DNA from: a virus
DNA length: 35,799 bases
Direction: 5' to 3' (one strand)
IMG/VR virus record: IMGVR_UViG_3300030116_000338
Span: 1 to 35,799 of that record
Positions within the stretch are counted from its first letter, which is position 1, and each line of letters opens with the position of its first letter. The notes under the pieces are model-generated. The model was given only the letters and a program-made list of their open reading frames with translations. It was not told the DNA's origin and did not search any database. Position numbers and translations under genes: made by a program. This document shows positions 1 through 35,799 of this stretch, one piece after another.

Positions 1-200
1 ACTACAAAAGTAAAACACATGTCAACCCCTCCCCCGGGGCCTAAAGTTATCCACAGGTTTTGCACAGGTTGTCCAAGGTTGTGGATAACTCTAGTCTGCC
101 TGTGGATAACTTCAGGGTCTGTGGATAGCCTGTGGATAACTTTGGGGTCAACATTGGCACGGAGATTGCATGGGTTGACAAGTGTGTGAGCCTGTGTTGG
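1..200. repeat. Left copy of imperfect terminal direct repeat
   Basis: This stretch recurs at 35602-35799. By eye the two copies differ by six substitutions and one 2-base gap: positions 38-44 read ggcctaa here and tctat in the right copy, with further changes near positions 147, 160, 163 and 164. The copy holds a cluster of DnaA-box-like sites, and none of the differences fall in them. Either the window is a circular genome whose overlapping ends came from slightly different population members, or the phage carries a real short terminal repeat like that of T7. I cannot decide between these from one sequence. Confidence 0.95.
47..139. other. DnaA-box cluster, putative replication origin
   Basis: Four perfect matches to the proteobacterial DnaA box TTATCCACA lie at 47-55 (plus strand) and 80-88, 101-109 and 131-139 (minus strand). 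A one-mismatch copy lies at 120-128. Start-to-start distances are 33, 21, 19 and 11 bases, close to whole helical turns. The sequence cctgtggataactt occurs at 99-112 and again at 129-142. The cluster lies in the non-coding hub between the divergent early and late blocks, beside an AT-rich tract (35430-35600). A single sequence like the E. coli unwinding 13-mer, gatctttttatat, lies at 231-243. Role as an origin, or as a DnaA-responsive control site, is inferred from this arrangement. Confidence 0.7.
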
Positions 201-3262: not shown

Positions 3263-3412
3263 GTGAACGAGCAGGAACTAGAGCAGTGGCTACGGGACAA
3301 CCCGTGGAAAGCTAACGTGATCTATCCTGCTGGGGGTATAGGGTTTATGATGTTCATTATGTACACCTGTATGCAGATCATAGATTCTTTTTTGACAGGT
3401 AGTTTCATATAG
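3263..3412 (+). CDS. Small membrane protein (49 aa)
   Basis: A 49-residue protein from a GTG at 3263, with ggagg a few bases upstream. A polar helix (NEQELEQWLRDNPWKA) is followed by a methionine-rich hydrophobic segment (about residues 19-40, VIYPAGGIGFMMFIMYTCMQ). Its 3' end contains the -35 element of the promoter at 3392-3420. It is the last member of the tiny-gene cluster before the replication genes. Confidence 0.55.
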   Translation: MNEQELEQWLRDNPWKANVIYPAGGIGFMMFIMYTCMQIIDSFLTGSFI

Positions 3413-3420
3413 TGTATACT
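3392..3420 (+). promoter_or_regulatory. Sigma70 promoter for the replication genes
   Basis: TTGACA (3392-3397), a 17-base spacer and TATACT (3415-3420): the -35 is a perfect consensus match and the -10 matches five of six. Transcription would start near 3427, about 50 bases before the single-stranded DNA-binding protein gene. It is one of four promoters of nearly identical design in the window. Confidence 0.85.
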
Positions 3421-3477
3421 ATTAGTATGTTCTGGGAAAAGTCCAGAGCTAAAACCAAAACCAACGGAGATTATTCC

Positions 3478-3855
3478 ATGACAGCAACAACAGTAGAAGG
3501 CGTAGTTAACTTCAGCAACTTGACCACCCATGACGTATTTAACGGTCAGGACACTGGAGCCTACTCCATGACAATCACATTGTCAGAAGACGATGCTGCG
3601 GAGCTTGCAGCCAACGGTGTCAAGATCAAGGACTACCAAGGCAACAAGCAACGCAAGTTCAAGTCAAAGTACGAGATCAAGCGTTTCGACGCAGAGGGTA
3701 ACCCCTACACCGGAGAAGTACCATACAACTCCAAAGTACGCCTAAAGTACAAGCTGGGACAGCCTCACCCAGTGCATGGCGTAGCGACCTACCTTGAGGC
3801 GGTCAAAGTCTTAGAAGAAGCAGAAATGACTACGGCTGATGCCGCAGACTTCTAA
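3478..3855 (+). CDS. Putative single-stranded DNA-binding protein (gp2.5-like)
   Basis: A 125-residue protein likely to coat single-stranded DNA during phage replication. ATG 3478, with ggaga seven bases upstream, is preferred over the in-frame opening at 3412, which lies inside the promoter. The middle is rich in strands and basic residues (YQGNKQRKFKSKYEIKRF). The C-terminus is acidic and ends in phenylalanine (EEAEMTTADAADF), the type of tail T7 gp2.5 uses to contact polymerase and helicase. The gene lies directly before the primase-helicase, overlapping it by 17 bases. The assignment rests on size, tail and position; I see no diagnostic motif, so confidence is moderate. Confidence 0.65.
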   Translation: MTATTVEGVVNFSNLTTHDVFNGQDTGAYSMTITLSEDDAAELAANGVKIKDYQGNKQRKFKSKYEIKRFDAEGNPYTGEVPYNSKVRLKYKLGQPHPVHGVATYLEAVKVLEEAEMTTADAADF

Positions 3856-5452
3856 GTTCCTCAGACACGAGAGTTGTCCGGAGTGCGGTTCTTCGGACGC
3901 TCTCGCTATCTACAGCGACGGCGGTCAACACTGTTTTGCCGCCGGTTGTGACTATCACGTCCATGGTGGAGACCAAGGCATGACCTCAGAATTACCTAAG
4001 GCCAAGCCCCTGAATTTCAAGGGAGTGGTCTCAAGCATACCCCAACGGCGCATATCTCAGGACACCTGTGGGCGCTACGGGGTCACCGTGGAGTATTCTT
4101 CCACAGGTGAAATAGAGAAGCACTACTACCCCTACTACGACCTGTCTACGGGTGACCTGTGCGCGGCAAAGGTACGCGAGGTCAAGACCAAAGGGTTCAT
4201 GTCCATGGGGGACGTAGGCAACGTCGGATTCTTCGGGCAACAGCAGTGTAATAGGAACACCTTCATCACGATTACTGAGGGCGAACTAGACGCCTTGGCA
4301 ATCTACGAGATGTCAGGCAAACAATGGGACGTGGTGTCGCTTCGGTCAGGCGCGAGTAACGCCGCCAAGGAGATCAAGGCCCAGCTGGAGTGGCTCGAAG
4401 GGTACGACACAGTGGTACTCTGCTTTGATAATGACAAGGCAGGAGACGAAGCAGTAGAGCAGGTCAAAGACCTATTTAGTCCTGACAAGCTCAAGATCTG
4501 TAAGCTGCCGCTAAAGGACGCCAGTGACATGCTCATGGCAAACAGGGTCAAAGACTTTACGCAACACTGGTGGAACGCGAAGGTCTACAGACCCGACGGT
4601 ATCGTCGCCGGTACTGACACATGGGACAAGCTGGTAGAAAAGAGAAACGTCAAGTCAATACCTTATCCATGGGAGGGACTGAATCACATCACAAGAGGAC
4701 ACAGGCCCTATGAACTCGTCACGATCACTAGCGGCAGTGGTATGGGAAAGTCCCAATTTATCAGAGAAATCGAGTATGATCTTCTACGCCGATGCGAAGG
4801 CAATATTGGAGTCTTGGCGCTTGAGGAGGATTTGGCCCGAACAACGCTTGGTATCATGTCGGTGGCGGCAAACAGGCCCCTTCACTTGGAAGAGGACACG
4901 CCTGTGGACGAACTTCGACCGTTTTGGGAGACCACACTGGGAACAGGACGTTACTACCTATTTGACCATTGGGGGTCAACGTCGGCTGATAACCTGCTCG
5001 CCCGTGTTCGCTACATGGCAAAAGCACTTGACTGCCGGTACGTCATACTGGACCACCTGTCCATCGTCGTCAGTTCTCAGGAGTCAGGGGACGAACGGAA
5101 GGCCATTGACGAAATCATGACCAAGTTACGGACTCTGGTGGCTGAGACGGGCATCTGTCTGTTTCTCGTGTCACACCTCCGGAGATCCCAAGGCAAGGCC
5201 CATGAGGACGGCGCTCAGATCAGCTTGGGTGAACTCAGAGGTAGTCAAGCCATTGCCCAGTTGTCAGACATAGTCATCGGTATGGAACGGGATCAGCAAC
5301 ACGAGAATGAAGACGTGAGAAACACAACTACAGTCCGCGTGTTGAAAAACAGGTACACGGGCGAAACCGGACCTGCCTGTTGGCTGGCCTATGATCGTTC
5401 CACAGGTCGTCTGTCGGAAGTCGCTAATCCACACATAGGGGACGACTTTTGA
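3839..5452 (+). CDS. T7-like primase-helicase
   Basis: A 537-residue bifunctional protein, close in length to T7 gp4 (566). An N-terminal zinc-binding primase domain has C13, C16, C32 and C37. A Toprim domain follows, with TEGELDALA (about 146-154) and CFDNDKAGDEA (about 195-205). The RecA-like helicase domain has Walker A GSGMGKS at 299-305 (K304), a Walker B-like VILDHLSIV, and RGSQAIAQLSDIVIG. It should unwind DNA as a ring at the fork and lay down primers for the polymerase encoded next. Its start overlaps the ssb-like gene by 17 bases, and its stop overlaps the polymerase start (TTGA). An internal start at 3980 may give a helicase-only form. Confidence 0.95.
   Translation: MPQTSKFLRHESCPECGSSDALAIYSDGGQHCFAAGCDYHVHGGDQGMTSELPKAKPLNFKGVVSSIPQRRISQDTCGRYGVTVEYSSTGEIEKHYYPYYDLSTGDLCAAKVREVKTKGFMSMGDVGNVGFFGQQQCNRNTFITITEGELDALAIYEMSGKQWDVVSLRSGASNAAKEIKAQLEWLEGYDTVVLCFDNDKAGDEAVEQVKDLFSPDKLKICKLPLKDASDMLMANRVKDFTQHWWNAKVYRPDGIVAGTDTWDKLVEKRNVKSIPYPWEGLNHITRGHRPYELVTITSGSGMGKSQFIREIEYDLLRRCEGNIGVLALEEDLARTTLGIMSVAANRPLHLEEDTPVDELRPFWETTLGTGRYYLFDHWGSTSADNLLARVRYMAKALDCRYVILDHLSIVVSSQESGDERKAIDEIMTKLRTLVAETGICLFLVSHLRRSQGKAHEDGAQISLGELRGSQAIAQLSDIVIGMERDQQHENEDVRNTTTVRVLKNRYTGETGPACWLAYDRSTGRLSEVANPHIGDDF
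3968..3982 (+). promoter_or_regulatory. Possible internal translation start (helicase-only form)
   Basis: GGAG at 3968-3971 stands eight bases before an in-frame ATG at 3980, which is Met48 of the primase-helicase and lies just past the zinc-binding cysteines. T7 gene 4 is known to make a shorter 4B protein without the zinc domain from such an internal start. A product of 490 residues would keep the Toprim and helicase domains. Inferred by analogy. Confidence 0.5.
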
Positions 5453-7080
5453 TTTACCTTGACTTGGAAGCCGACGGTTTGAACCCTACGCGCATCTGGT
5501 GTGTCGTGACACGGGAAAACGGAGTAAACACTGTACATAAGGACCCAGACACCCTCTGTAAGGCTCTAGAAGGCTCTGTGAGCGTCGTAGGCCACAACCT
5601 GATAGGTTACGACCTCCCAGTGCTAAAACGTCTCTGGGGCGTTTCTGTGGCCCCTGAGCGCATAGTGGATACTTTGGTGTTGTCACGCTTGTATGACCCA
5701 AGTCGTGCCGGTGGACACTCCCTGAAGGTCTGGGGTGAGCTTCTGGGCTTCCCCAAAGGTGACCACGACGACTGGTCCTGCCTATCTACTGCTATGATTG
5801 AGTACTGTGAGCGTGACACAGAGGTCACAGAGGCCGTACACAAGCAGTTAGTTAGGGACATGGCAGGGTTCGACCAGCGGTCCATCGACTTGGAACACAA
5901 AGTGCAGTACGCTGTACAACAACAGGAGAGAAACGGATGGTTACTTGACCAAGAGTTAGCTCATGACCTTTTAGCAACATTTAAGGAGAGAATGAATGAA
6001 ATTGAAGAGGAATTACAGGAGAAGTTCCCCCCTATCATACATCAAAGGTGGTCTGAAAAGACAGGCAAACGCCTTAAGGATAGAGTCGAGATATTCAATG
6101 TTGGTTCTAGACAGCAAATTGCGAGGCGCTTATCGACGCTTGGTGTTGTCTTTCAGAAAGTTACGGAGAAAGGGAATCCCATTGTTGACGAGGCTGTACT
6201 AGACACCATTGACCTGCCAGAGGCTAGGTCCATTAGTGAGTACTTGATGCTACAAAAGAGATACGCACAGGTCCACTCATGGCTAGAACATGTGCAGGAC
6301 GACGGAAGAGTTCATGGCCGTGTCATTAGCAACGGTGCAGTCACTGGACGCATGACCCACCAGAGTCCCAACATGGCTCAGGTCCCAGCAAGCCACAGCC
6401 CCTACGGGCATGAGTGTCGCTCCTGCTGGACTGTACCTAAAGGGAAGGCTTTGGTTGGCTTCGACGCTTCTGGGTTGGAACTTAGAATGCTGGCACATTA
6501 CATGGACGATAAGGAGTTTACCAATGTCCTCCTCACCGAAGATATACACACAAGAAATCAACTGGCTGCGGGGCTGGAAACAAGACCTCAAGCTAAGACT
6601 TTCATCTACGCTTTCCTCTACGGAGCAGGAGATGCAAAAATTGGAACCATCGTTGGAGGAAGCGCAAAGGACGGCGCAGATCTTAAACGACGATTTCTAT
6701 CAAATACACCTTCTCTTGAAAGTCTACGAGACCGCGTTGCTAGAGCATCTGGGCGAGGCTATCTCACAGGACTTGACGGACGTAGACTTAGAGTTCGATC
6801 TGAACATGCTGCACTGAATACACTACTTCAGGCGGCAGGGGCTATCGTGATGAAGCAAGCTCTGGTTACTTTGGACGACTACGCACGACAGTGGAAACTT
6901 GACTATAAATTCATAGGTAACATACATGACGAAGTACAATCGGAGGTGGCTGCAGACCAAGCAGAGAAGTATGGTTGGCTCGCAGTGGAGTGCCTCAAGG
7001 CGGCAGGCGTGGAGTTCAACCTCCGATGTCCCCTTGACGGAGAATACAAAGTTGGAACAACGTGGGCAGAGACCCACTGA
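5449..7080 (+). CDS. Family A DNA polymerase (T7-like)
   Basis: A 543-residue replicative polymerase with an intact 3'-5' exonuclease domain. Exo I has D5 and E7, the same positions as in T7; Exo II is GHNLIGYDLPVL; Exo III is YCERDTEV. Polymerase motif A is GFDASGLELR (D339), motif B has R379, K383 and Y387, and motif C is HDE (D494). Y387 corresponds to T7 Tyr526 (position 762 in E. coli Pol I numbering). It is about 160 residues shorter than T7 gp5, so the thioredoxin-binding insert is probably reduced or absent. The start must be TTG 5449: no ATG or GTG lies between the upstream in-frame stop at 5425 and Exo I. Confidence 0.96.
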   Translation: MIYLDLEADGLNPTRIWCVVTRENGVNTVHKDPDTLCKALEGSVSVVGHNLIGYDLPVLKRLWGVSVAPERIVDTLVLSRLYDPSRAGGHSLKVWGELLGFPKGDHDDWSCLSTAMIEYCERDTEVTEAVHKQLVRDMAGFDQRSIDLEHKVQYAVQQQERNGWLLDQELAHDLLATFKERMNEIEEELQEKFPPIIHQRWSEKTGKRLKDRVEIFNVGSRQQIARRLSTLGVVFQKVTEKGNPIVDEAVLDTIDLPEARSISEYLMLQKRYAQVHSWLEHVQDDGRVHGRVISNGAVTGRMTHQSPNMAQVPASHSPYGHECRSCWTVPKGKALVGFDASGLELRMLAHYMDDKEFTNVLLTEDIHTRNQLAAGLETRPQAKTFIYAFLYGAGDAKIGTIVGGSAKDGADLKRRFLSNTPSLESLRDRVARASGRGYLTGLDGRRLRVRSEHAALNTLLQAAGAIVMKQALVTLDDYARQWKLDYKFIGNIHDEVQSEVAADQAEKYGWLAVECLKAAGVEFNLRCPLDGEYKVGTTWAETH

Positions 7081-8311: not shown

Positions 8312-8462
8312 GGAACGCCTCTTGAAAACCTTTGACCCAGACGACCTACTGGAGGCCCTACAGATAACCTCAGAGCAGATACTGGAAAGGTTTGAGGACA
8401 AGCTAATCAACAGACTGGATGTGTTTGAACAAGAGCTAGAGGAGGAAGAGAATGAGTATTGA
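8286..8462 (+). CDS. Small acidic helical protein (58 aa)
   Basis: A 58-residue, strongly acidic protein that looks entirely helical (LEEVKERLLKTFDPDDLLEA, then a heptad-like stretch ending EQELEEEENEY). aggag at 8271-8275 supports ATG 8286, and a TTG six bases earlier is less likely. It overlaps the endonuclease end and the DUF3310 start. A protein-protein contact role is plausible, but I do not recognise the family. Confidence 0.6.
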   Translation: MSLTLEEVKERLLKTFDPDDLLEALQITSEQILERFEDKLINRLDVFEQELEEEENEY

Positions 8463-8748
8463 TGACGCGACTCCCGAAGAGTGGGACACAGTTAGAGCAT
8501 TGAACAACCTGTCCATTAGGAAGCCGAAGCAGGTAGACCCTGTGGAGCAACCTGACCACTACAACAAGGGAGCAATCGAAGCCATTGAAGCAATCAAAGC
8601 GTCCATGCCAGCGAACGAGTTTAACGGTTATCTTAAGGGCAACGCACTAAAGTACCTCTGGCGCTATGACTACAAGGGTAAGCCCGTGGAGGACCTACGC
8701 AAGTGCCGTTGGTACATCGACAGGCTTATTAAGGAGATAAACCAGTGA
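8452..8748 (+). CDS. DUF3310-family protein
   Basis: A 98-residue protein with the pattern of DUF3310, a phage family sometimes labelled nucleotide kinase. The signature is in the second half: PDHYNKGAIEAIEAI, then GYLKGNALKYLWRYDYKG, then DLRKCRWYIDRLI. The family is widespread in tailed phages next to nucleotide and replication genes, with no firmly established activity. Here it lies two genes before a ribonucleotide reductase, which fits a link to nucleotide supply. It starts inside the preceding gene and its stop shares GTGA with the lipoprotein gene. Confidence 0.85.
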   Translation: MSIDDATPEEWDTVRALNNLSIRKPKQVDPVEQPDHYNKGAIEAIEAIKASMPANEFNGYLKGNALKYLWRYDYKGKPVEDLRKCRWYIDRLIKEINQ

Positions 8749-33097: not shown

Positions 33098-34351
33098 TTA
33101 GTATCCTGCTACCACGTCTAAAATTTCATGGTCTTCTATTTCGTAGTCGTAGTCGTACGCTACATTAGCCAATTGGTCGATGTACGCTAAAGCGTCTATC
33201 AAATCATCATGGGTTAATGGATCAGGAAACTGAAACAGCTGGTCAAGAAATTTACTGTTCCATTCACCTGTGTTTAAAGTAATGTAGCCATTTTCAAAAC
33301 GACCTTGTAACGCCCACATTACACGATCTGTTTTCTTTTTGTTTCCATGAGTTAGTTCTTCAACTCTAAAAAACATGCCGTATCGCTTCTGCATGTCCAT
33401 CAAAGGAGACATTACAGCTTGTTTAGCAATACCTCTTTCGATTCCAACCGACACGGGACGGTAATCTCTAACGGCCTGAAATATCTTAGCTGCTGTTTCG
33501 TCAAGACTCCATCTGCCATATATGATATTGTCAATATACCAACCATGCTCATTGACCTTAACCACTGCGATCGCTGTGTCGTCAAGCTTGGAGTTTTTAG
33601 TTTTCTTTTTGTTGACTTCTTCAAATCCTGCCAAGTCAACTGCAATGTAATAATCTCCTATTTCTGGCTCATCTTCACTAAACTTAACCCAATCTTCCTT
33701 AAACATTTCTGACCCACGGGCTTCAAACGACGCCATAAACTCTTGACGAAACGCATAAGAAGACATAGACTTTTTAGCAATGTCAATTTCGTCCGGGTCC
33801 AACAATGGATTGTCATAAGAAGTAAAGTGCCACGCACGGTACGTCGGATCATTGCTTAACTCCGCATATTTATAAAGTTCGTAGAAGTGGTTGCGCCCCA
33901 TAGGTGTTCCTATGAACATTGCACAGCCCTTCTGGTCAGCCAATGCAGGTCTAAGGATCTGCTCAAACACCTCTGGCTTCATGTCAGCGTACTCGTCCAT
34001 GACTAGGAACTTGAGGCTGACACCTCGCATTGTCTCTGGTCGGTCAGCACCTTTTAGGCTAATGGTAGCACCGTTGACAAGCTTAATTTGCAAATTATTA
34101 ATGTGACTACCACTAATAACGGGGTGGCCCAGTTCAAGCAAGGTTTGCCACATGATGTCTCTGGCTTGTCCCTGAGTAGGTGCGACGTAAAATACATGGC
34201 CTCTGTCCGCCTGCAATGCGTTAACGATTAACATCCATGCTGCTAACCTAGACTTACCAGTACGTCGCCCAGCAGCTACTATTTTAAATCTTGTGTCGTC
34301 TGCCCAGACATCTTGCTGCCAAGGCAGTAGTTCGATATTGAGATCAGTCAA
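33098..34351 (-). CDS. Terminase large subunit
   Basis: A 417-residue packaging motor. The ATPase domain has Walker A AGRRTGKS at residues 27-34 (K33), Walker B FLVMDEY with D119 and E120, and a GTPMGRNHFY coupling motif. The nuclease domain has YIAVDLAGFEE near residue 230, GIERG, and HDDLIDALAY near the end, giving the acidic metal-binding set. It cuts concatemers and pumps DNA into the procapsid through the portal. The start must be TTG 34351: between the upstream in-frame stop and Walker A there is no ATG or GTG. That TTG lies eight bases inside the preceding gene. Confidence 0.95.
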   Translation of the reverse strand: MTDLNIELLPWQQDVWADDTRFKIVAAGRRTGKSRLAAWMLIVNALQADRGHVFYVAPTQGQARDIMWQTLLELGHPVISGSHINNLQIKLVNGATISLKGADRPETMRGVSLKFLVMDEYADMKPEVFEQILRPALADQKGCAMFIGTPMGRNHFYELYKYAELSNDPTYRAWHFTSYDNPLLDPDEIDIAKKSMSSYAFRQEFMASFEARGSEMFKEDWVKFSEDEPEIGDYYIAVDLAGFEEVNKKKTKNSKLDDTAIAVVKVNEHGWYIDNIIYGRWSLDETAAKIFQAVRDYRPVSVGIERGIAKQAVMSPLMDMQKRYGMFFRVEELTHGNKKKTDRVMWALQGRFENGYITLNTGEWNSKFLDQLFQFPDPLTHDDLIDALAYIDQLANVAYDYDYEIEDHEILDVVAGY

Positions 34352-34703: not shown

Positions 34704-35053
34704 TAGTATGTCCACATAACTGGTGTTGTGCCACGGGTGTCAACGTGGATAAAGTCAGAAGCAACACCTATGCCTGTAAAACCAAGCTTAAGAGCAGCAT
34801 TAACAAGCTTAAGGCGATCAGCAGCGTTTGTTATTTTTATGTCCGCTGCGATCCCTTGGGCATGTGTTCCGGGTACATCTTTCTTTTTTTCTATGGGGTG
34901 CATCGTTGGATGTCGATACCCACTTGTTATTACGAAAGGGAAACCACAGTATGCCCGTAACTCGTCTAACTTCTCTAGAAACTCCATTTCCATGTTGTTG
35001 GTACCGGAGACTTGACAGTCAAACTCTTCTCTTTTGAAGTGCTTAAGACTCAT
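34703..35053 (-). CDS. M15-type peptidase, putative endolysin
   Basis: A 116-residue zinc peptidase of the M15 (D,D-carboxypeptidase/L,D-endopeptidase) type. The metal and catalytic motifs are S-G-Y-R near residue 44, H-x6-D in THAQGIAADI, and FIHVD near the end. It should cleave peptide cross-links of peptidoglycan at lysis. It has no signal peptide, so a holin must release it; a holin-like gene lies 12 kb away at 21806-22150. Its place as the second gene of the late block, inside the packaging genes, is unusual for a lysis enzyme. It overlaps the terS-like gene by 11 bases. Confidence 0.88.
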   Translation of the reverse strand: MSLKHFKREEFDCQVSGTNNMEMEFLEKLDELRAYCGFPFVITSGYRHPTMHPIEKKKDVPGTHAQGIAADIKITNAADRLKLVNAALKLGFTGIGVASDFIHVDTRGTTPVMWTY

Positions 35054-35429
35054 CTTCTACTACTTCTCCTTCGATTATATCTGGAGTTGATACCTCAGCA
35101 GTACCAACCCCTGTAATATTAATTTGTATAGCGTTTCTACCTGTGTCTTTGACTACGTCCTTCTCAAAAGCACCCACGGGTAGTATACGATCCATCACAA
35201 GTTTCCAAGCAGCAGCTTGATTTTTATGATCATTGTCCAAAGCAGCATCAAAAATAGTCTCTAAGACCTTACGAGACTTAGGACTAGCCAACATTCTAGC
35301 CTTGTACTCGTTAATTATCGCTGCGTCACCCTTAGGTCGGCCTACTTGACCCTTGTTTCCGGGTTTTACAGCGGCTACTTCGGACTTTCGGGGTCTGCCA
35401 CGACCTCTTTTTTTAATCTCAGTGGTCAT
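35043..35429 (-). CDS. Putative terminase small subunit with AT-hook motifs
   Basis: A 128-residue protein, first gene of the late block. Two AT-hook-like motifs lie near the N-terminus: RGRGRP at about residues 8-13 and VGRPKG at 29-34. A helical core follows (YKARMLASPKSRKVLETIFD, then NQAAAWKLVMDRILPVGAFE), and the C-terminus is acidic (EGEVVEDES). AT-hooks bind the minor groove of AT-rich DNA, and the AT-rich intergenic tract lies just upstream. Small terminase subunits pick the packaging site; that role is inferred from position just before the other packaging genes. Confidence 0.65.
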   Translation of the reverse strand: MTTEIKKRGRGRPRKSEVAAVKPGNKGQVGRPKGDAAIINEYKARMLASPKSRKVLETIFDAALDNDHKNQAAAWKLVMDRILPVGAFEKDVVKDTGRNAIQINITGVGTAEVSTPDIIEGEVVEDES

Positions 35430-35457
35430 AACTAAAATTATCCCTGTTTATGCCAAT

Positions 35458-35486
35458 AGTATAACATAAGTTTACATAAAAGTCAA
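35458..35486 (-). promoter_or_regulatory. Main late sigma70 promoter
   Basis: On the minus strand, TTGACT (35486-35481), a 17-base spacer and TATACT (35463-35458), with TGT before the -10 as an extended element. Start expected near 35451, about 20 bases before the terS-like ATG at 35429. Nearly the same sequence design as the promoter at 28766-28794, down to the TTGACTTTTGT/TTGACTTTTAT beginning. Confidence 0.88.
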
Positions 35487-35601
35487 GCTATTTTAGAGGT
35501 AAAAGCAGTAGAAGTACAAACATGAGTAAAATCAACAGGTTACACGGGTTTAATTTATGGGTAATTTTCTTAATTTTGACCTATTTTGTGTCTAGGCGGC
35601 T
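35487..35601. other. AT-rich tract beside the DnaA-box repeat
   Basis: Between the late promoter and the right repeat lies a strongly AT-rich stretch, with runs such as taatttatgggtaattttct and taattttgacctattttg. It directly precedes the DnaA-box repeat in the circular order, so it could be the duplex-unwinding part of an origin. Apart from the doubtful 30-codon frame no gene is seen. Confidence 0.4.
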
Positions 35602-35614
35602 ACTACAAAAGTAA
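35522..35614 (+). CDS. Possible 30-residue membrane peptide across the repeat edge
   Basis: A 30-codon frame: basic start (MSKINRLHGF), hydrophobic segment (NLWVIFLILTYFV) and basic end (SRRLLQK). Its last four codons lie inside the right terminal repeat. No clear ribosome binding site is present, and the AT-rich tract may serve as an origin element instead. Reported because the basic-hydrophobic-basic pattern fits the small membrane proteins downstream. Confidence 0.3.
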   Translation: MSKINRLHGFNLWVIFLILTYFVSRRLLQK

Positions 35615-35799
35615 AACACATGTCAACCCCTCCCCCGGTCTATAGTTATCCACAGGTTTTGCACAGGTTGTCCAAGGTTGTGGATAACTCTAGTCTGCCT
35701 GTGGATAACTTCAGGGTCTGTGGATAGCCTGTGGATAACTTTGGGGGCAACATTGGCATGGTTATTGCATGGGTTGACAAGTGTGTGAGCCTGTGTTGG
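35602..35799. repeat. Right copy of imperfect terminal direct repeat
   Basis: This 198-base end repeats positions 1-200 with six substitutions and a two-base gap. DnaA boxes recur at 35646-35654, 35679-35687, 35700-35708 and 35730-35738, with the one-mismatch copy at 35719-35727, all unchanged relative to the left copy. Joining the ends gives one molecule of about 35.6 kb. Confidence 0.95.

Follow-up and report, generated by a model that had tools for sequence, protein, structure and literature searches.

A DnaA-box hub, a candidate replication origin, in a family of small phages and its exchange for sigma-54-consensus arrays in close relatives

The DNA analysed here (the window) comes from a small marine phage and makes up a single IMG/VR record, 35,799 bases long. 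Its plus strand encodes a Gp2.5-like ssDNA-binding protein (3412–3855), a T7-type primase-helicase (3839–5452) and a family A DNA polymerase, PolA (5449–7080). The first-pass annotation had described a T7-type primase-helicase and polymerase in a phage that lacks the T7 RNA polymerase, and both parts of this description held. The two replication genes were found, and PF00940, the RNA polymerase profile, was missing in G000 and its relatives while it matched the control phages CRP-361, HTVC031P and Pasto. The search for a phage-encoded DnaA gave no Bac_DnaA match over the cut-off; a weak match in the relative G025 turned out to be a DEAD/ResIII helicase. An open reading frame of 98 amino acids (8452–8745) showed short-stretch matches to many nucleotide kinase PHROG families and is possibly a minimal or truncated kinase. 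The minus strand carries the terminase large subunit gene terL (33098–34351) and the putative small subunit gene terS (35043–35429). The latter was named by its position, as the left neighbour of the hub in the box-bearing relatives, and matched no PHROG family.

Between terS and the early plus-strand operon lies the region that we call the hub. From left to right it consists of an AT-rich block with a promoter, a C-tract, a variable cassette, which holds the DnaA boxes in the window, and a conserved element. The AT-rich block (35430–35580) is a candidate unwinding element; the 100-bp stretch with the highest AT content in the genome starts at about 35405–35433, across the C-tract from the boxes. 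The AT-rich tract that had been noted beside the boxes is real, but it lies outside the first 200 bases, to which it had been assigned. The block adjoins the boxes, yet it overlaps the terS promoter and is kept in near relatives whether they have boxes or not. This promoter is a predicted sigma-70-type site, TTGACT-17-TATACT with a TG before the second hexamer, directed towards terS (35458–35486, minus strand) and present at the same site in L013. The number of such promoters was near the shuffle mean, and the support for this one comes from its conservation in relatives. The C-tract CCCCTCCCCC (26–35, plus strand) is the constant left border of the cassette and is also present in the freshwater clade described below. 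The form CCCTCCCCC, adjoining the hub, is kept even in that clade and marks the border of cassette recombination. The right border is the element TTGACAARTGTGTGnnCYTRTGTTG (175–199, plus strand). It is kept in about 100 distinct hubs, and its spacing does not suit a sigma-70 promoter.

Within the cassette, exact copies of TTATCCACA, a binding site for the DnaA with which bacteria initiate replication of their chromosome, were found at 47–55 on the plus strand, in the context AAGTTATCCACAGG, and at 80–88, 101–109 and 131–139 on the minus strand. A near match, CTATCCACA, lies at 120–128 (minus strand) and a weak box, TTTTGCACA, at 58–66 (plus strand); the latter fits TTWTNCACA, the E. coli consensus. 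The four perfect boxes and one near match reported at first were recovered by position, with the box at 58 as a sixth, and the near-helical spacing was borne out by start-to-start distances of 11, 22, 21, 19 and 11 bp. Four exact boxes in 95 bp compare with 0 of 1000 first-order Markov sequences that had more than one, and the five boxes with at most one mismatch compare with a maximum of three in 1000 such sequences. Elsewhere in the window genome no exact box was found. At the level of sequence, the cluster was confirmed as a group of genuine DnaA-type sites, with a number and clustering far above chance. The same hub also carries two sigma-54-consensus sites on the plus strand, TGGCACGGAGATTGCA with -24/-12 spacing at 155–170 and TGGCACGATTGTTGCT at 211–226.

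A second copy of the box cluster was found at 35646–35738 when positions 1–200 were aligned with the end of the genome (about 35604–35799), with few differences. The overlap is imperfect, with substitutions and one indel, as is expected when a metagenome assembly mixes strain variants. In IMG/VR the record is labelled linear. The full-length relatives have one hub per genome, their opening points lie at many different places and several have overlapping ends. The end repeat and the varied opening points show that the window has a single hub on a circular map, cut at the point where the map was opened. Two separate end clusters or a terminal repeat were ruled out by this map. Fixed ends with direct terminal repeats were not found; the opening points, taken from contigs and not from virion DNA, varied.

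Other marks of an origin were then sought in the hub. The single GATCT-type 13-mer of the first-pass annotation was rejected: the E. coli-type site at 231–243 carries 2 mismatches, and the genome holds 18 sites of this quality. Nor is it conserved in box-bearing relatives, since L093 reads GATCC there and L013 has no 13-mer. Such 13-mers are not required outside E. coli-like oriCs. A search by eye for a DnaA-trio gave CTACTAC to the left of the C-tract, which was not kept in the marine box-array clade. The GC-skew minimum lies 56 bp from the window hub, and the change there matches the change in gene direction; freshwater genomes with co-directional genes showed no skew switch at the hub. GC skew was discarded as origin evidence, as it is confounded by gene direction.

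To follow the hub in other phages, several hundred loci were gathered by primase, terminase, hub-motif and tandem-box searches. The pattern TTATCCACAGGTTTTGCACAGG used alone matched only 5 contigs, one of them unrelated (L092). A marine box-array clade, with a primase about 86% identical to that of the window, has 7–12 boxes per hub beside terS, with neighbouring boxes usually separated by 11, 12, 22 or 33 bp. When the one-mismatch boxes of this clade with distinct context were compared, 30 of 35 had their mismatch at position 3 or 5, whereas shuffled sequences gave 23 of 92; these are the degenerate positions of TTWTNCACA. The substitutions sit at positions where DnaA is tolerant. Measured from the first base of the C-tract, the context of box 1 follows after 15–21 bp in most box-bearing relatives and about 40–45 bp in a few, and the cluster begins 10–25 bp past the constant C-tract.

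The freshwater clade is more distant (terL about 54% identical) and was sampled by terL, that is, without selecting for boxes. All 43 of its hubs had at least three boxes and 39 of them at least four. The box columns of these hubs were conserved at 0.92 and the other columns at 0.79 (p=3e-5). In four freshwater genomes that were inspected, exact boxes occurred solely in the hub, and across whole genomes of the family they are almost confined to it. The replisome of this clade is another one. In the freshwater genomes checked, neither a DNA polymerase of family A or B nor a DnaB_C helicase was matched, and an AAA_25 helicase-primase is found instead of the T7-type protein; the clade probably relies on the host replicase. 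Its genomes G016–G021 and G025 (loci L557–L566) have the same terminase type as the window phage, and G025 also encodes a Sak4-like annealing protein next to its DEAD/ResIII helicase. In the four inspected genomes the order is helicase-primase, hub, terS, and the genes flanking the hub are co-directional. The place of the hub is constant although the replisome and the direction of the neighbouring genes differ. Since the freshwater clade has boxes without a T7-type replisome or divergent promoters, the boxes track neither of the two. Compared with the earlier alternative that the boxes control divergent promoters, boxes between co-directional genes favour a role at an origin or nearby.

A blind search of the viral collection for two tandem boxes, which did not select for position, assigned 31 of the 118 loci to the family of the window phage, among the matches listed. 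In nearly all of these 31 the cluster lies beside terS. The other 87 listed loci (L202–L319) were not assigned to the family at a 55% identity cut-off, and 27 of them have 5–9 boxes in 300 bp. Clusters of predicted DnaA boxes are thus common among contigs of uncultured viruses. Judged by its occurrence, the box site is a trait of the phage family, since distant relatives whose replisome is another one have it in the same position.

Among the close relatives the picture was different. At least four boxes were present in only 9 of the 51 relatives with a terL 85–97% identical to that of the window, and at least two in 13. The first-pass annotation had suggested a search for boxes at the same place in related genomes and had named a lack of conservation in close relatives as counter-evidence. 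The outcome was divided: the hub keeps its position in related replicons and boxes were found there, but most close relatives lack them. By this distribution the box cassette is optional in the marine clade of the window. As most close relatives share the T7-type replisome and yet have no boxes, the boxes are not tied to this replisome.

Many of the box-less hubs carry the motif TGGCAYG-N4-TTGCW, which corresponds to the -24/-12 core of sigma-54 promoters. It occurs in up to 11 copies per hub, mostly on the plus strand, against an expected 0.001 per hub, and when whole genomes were scanned there were hardly any matches outside the hub. The sigma-54 promoter consensus, TGGCAC/T-G/A ... TTGC with GG-N10-GC spacing, was found in 161 contexts. 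The sites are almost without exception perfect: hubs that carry two or more perfect sites had only 4 one-mismatch sites. Such arrays were seen in L118, L075, L077, L160 and others. Over 99 hubs, boxes and sigma-54-consensus sites were strongly anticorrelated (Spearman -0.71, from related genomes), and only one of the 21 hubs with at least four boxes had a sigma-54 site (Fisher p=4e-12, nominal because the genomes are related). The exchange can be followed in L077 and L082, which are 96.6% identical over 639 bp up to the C-tract and then continue with unrelated cassettes, one with a sigma-54-consensus array and the other with two boxes. By this comparison the C-tract is the exchange point of the cassettes. 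The arrays occur in both orientations, with sites only 21 bp apart, which is unusual for promoters; they may be working promoters, bare sigma-54 binding sites or the sites of another protein. A literature search with partial coverage returned nothing relevant on sigma-54 promoters in phages.

The host was sought by scanning bacterial genomes with the primase, which gave no match, and with terL, which matched three contigs only (L568–L570). These were binned into MAGs of Sphingobacteriales, Verrucomicrobiales and Planctomycetaceae, which belong to three unrelated phyla, and were rejected as hosts because contamination is likely. A tRNA, looked for as a further host clue, was not found.

We propose that the hub is where the phage origin of replication lies and that its firing is assisted by DnaA, a reading to which we give a probability of about 0.5. 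Host DnaA-ATP would assemble on the boxes and help to open the AT-rich block. The phage T7-type primase-helicase would then enter the bubble and work with the phage PolA; the T7 primase-helicase can assemble on ssDNA without a loader. In the freshwater clade, the boxes and the AAA_25 helicase-primase would help to bring the phage DNA to the host replisome, and relatives with sigma-54-consensus arrays would have to open the hub in another way. Since close relatives manage without boxes, the hub can evidently fire in several ways, and DnaA would be no more than one of them. Against the model stand the majority of close relatives with the same replisome but no array, the persistence of the AT-rich block where boxes are lacking, and the lack of any GC-skew sign of replication beyond the effect of gene direction. 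Of the hybrid origin suggested at first, the combination of DnaA-type sites with a T7-type replisome stands, while the tie between the boxes and that replisome does not, given the 43 of 43 freshwater hubs. A more speculative reading, which we regard as doubtful, takes the hub as an exchangeable docking slot for host factors at the phage origin. Between the constant AT-rich promoter block with its C-tract and the early genes, family members would hold either arrayed DnaA boxes or as many as 11 sigma-54-consensus sites. Two unrelated host proteins would thus be recruited for one job, to open or activate the hub, with the window (5 boxes and 2 sigma-54 sites) as a hybrid.

The strongest rival, possible though not the reading we prefer, is that replication is started in the hub by transcription with the host RNA polymerase and that the cassette right of the C-tract, be it DnaA boxes, sigma-54-consensus sites or neither, works as an exchangeable regulator linking early transcription, and with it replication, to host physiology, with DnaA acting as a transcription factor. 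Near relatives share a constant, promoter-bearing AT-rich block but differ in the cassette, and boxes and sigma-54-consensus sites largely exclude each other (1 of the 21 hubs above), as would suit such a role. DnaA is also a known transcription regulator (PMC8203912). The boxes of the freshwater clade, however, are universal (43 of 43) and lie between co-directional genes. The 7–12 boxes of the box-array clade also exceed the number usual at DnaA-controlled promoters.

It is improbable that the boxes merely titrate host DnaA, as datA does, so that the host chromosome no longer initiates and the phage is left with more nucleotides. The high box number in some clades (7–12) and the multiplication of the sink by phage replication would suit this. 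A sink needs no particular position, however, and the strictly kept position and geometry beside terS and the C-tract would be needless for it; moreover, 5 sites make a weak sink and most close relatives have no boxes. It is highly improbable that the repeats belong to a pac or cos site by terS and resemble DnaA boxes only by descent: the cluster is found there in all cases, that is, beside terS and the conserved C-tract, but its substitutions follow the tolerance of DnaA, relatives with about 97% identical terminase lack boxes and no fixed genome end occurs at the hub.

The family bears on the question of how replication starts in virulent phages that combine a T7-type replisome with the lack of an RNA polymerase of their own. 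It offers a natural comparison, with one hub, two replisomes and cassettes of four kinds: those with DnaA boxes, those with sigma-54-consensus arrays, those with both and those with neither. The comparison suggests that a single origin-like site in phages can be served by exchangeable host factors, and it supplies defined fragments for tests.

Origins of phages and plasmids with DnaA boxes are a known kind, P1 oriR and the pSC101 ori being examples. Bacterial oriC and these two share with the hub the clustered, helically spaced boxes beside an AT-rich segment. The window hub differs from them in having no identified RepA-like initiator, iteron or 13-mers, in the phage's own T7-type primase-helicase and polymerase, and in boxes that are dispensable among close relatives. 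T7 and the Autographiviridae share the T7-type primase-helicase, the family A polymerase and the Gp2.5-like ssDNA-binding protein, but the window phage is without the single-subunit RNA polymerase and has a circular map without fixed ends; the T7-type isolates checked (CRP-361, CRP-804, HTVC031P and Pasto) had no box cluster. HMO-2011 and HTVC115P are similar in that no RNA polymerase is annotated and early and structural genes lie on opposite strands, and the window polymerase and primase are each 48% identical to those of HTVC115P. Their genomes are larger (54–55 kb), however, the portal is distant (about 25%) and no DnaA-box cluster was found in the 50 kb scanned of each. For the Pseudomonas phage vB_PseuGesM_254, which has a PolA, Ori-Finder predicted DnaA boxes beside an AT-rich region (PMC11512268); this phage is unrelated and the prediction concerns a single genome without a comparative test. 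The MPP-C cyanopodoviruses lack the DNA polymerase gene, as does the freshwater clade, and use of the host replicase has been proposed for them (PMC9860041), but their replication genes are unrelated and DnaA is unmentioned there. A literature search with partial coverage returned no phage with a comparable conserved DnaA-box hub or sigma-54-site array. What is new here is a DnaA-box hub that is kept across a family with exchanged replisomes and is swapped for sigma-54-consensus arrays in close relatives.
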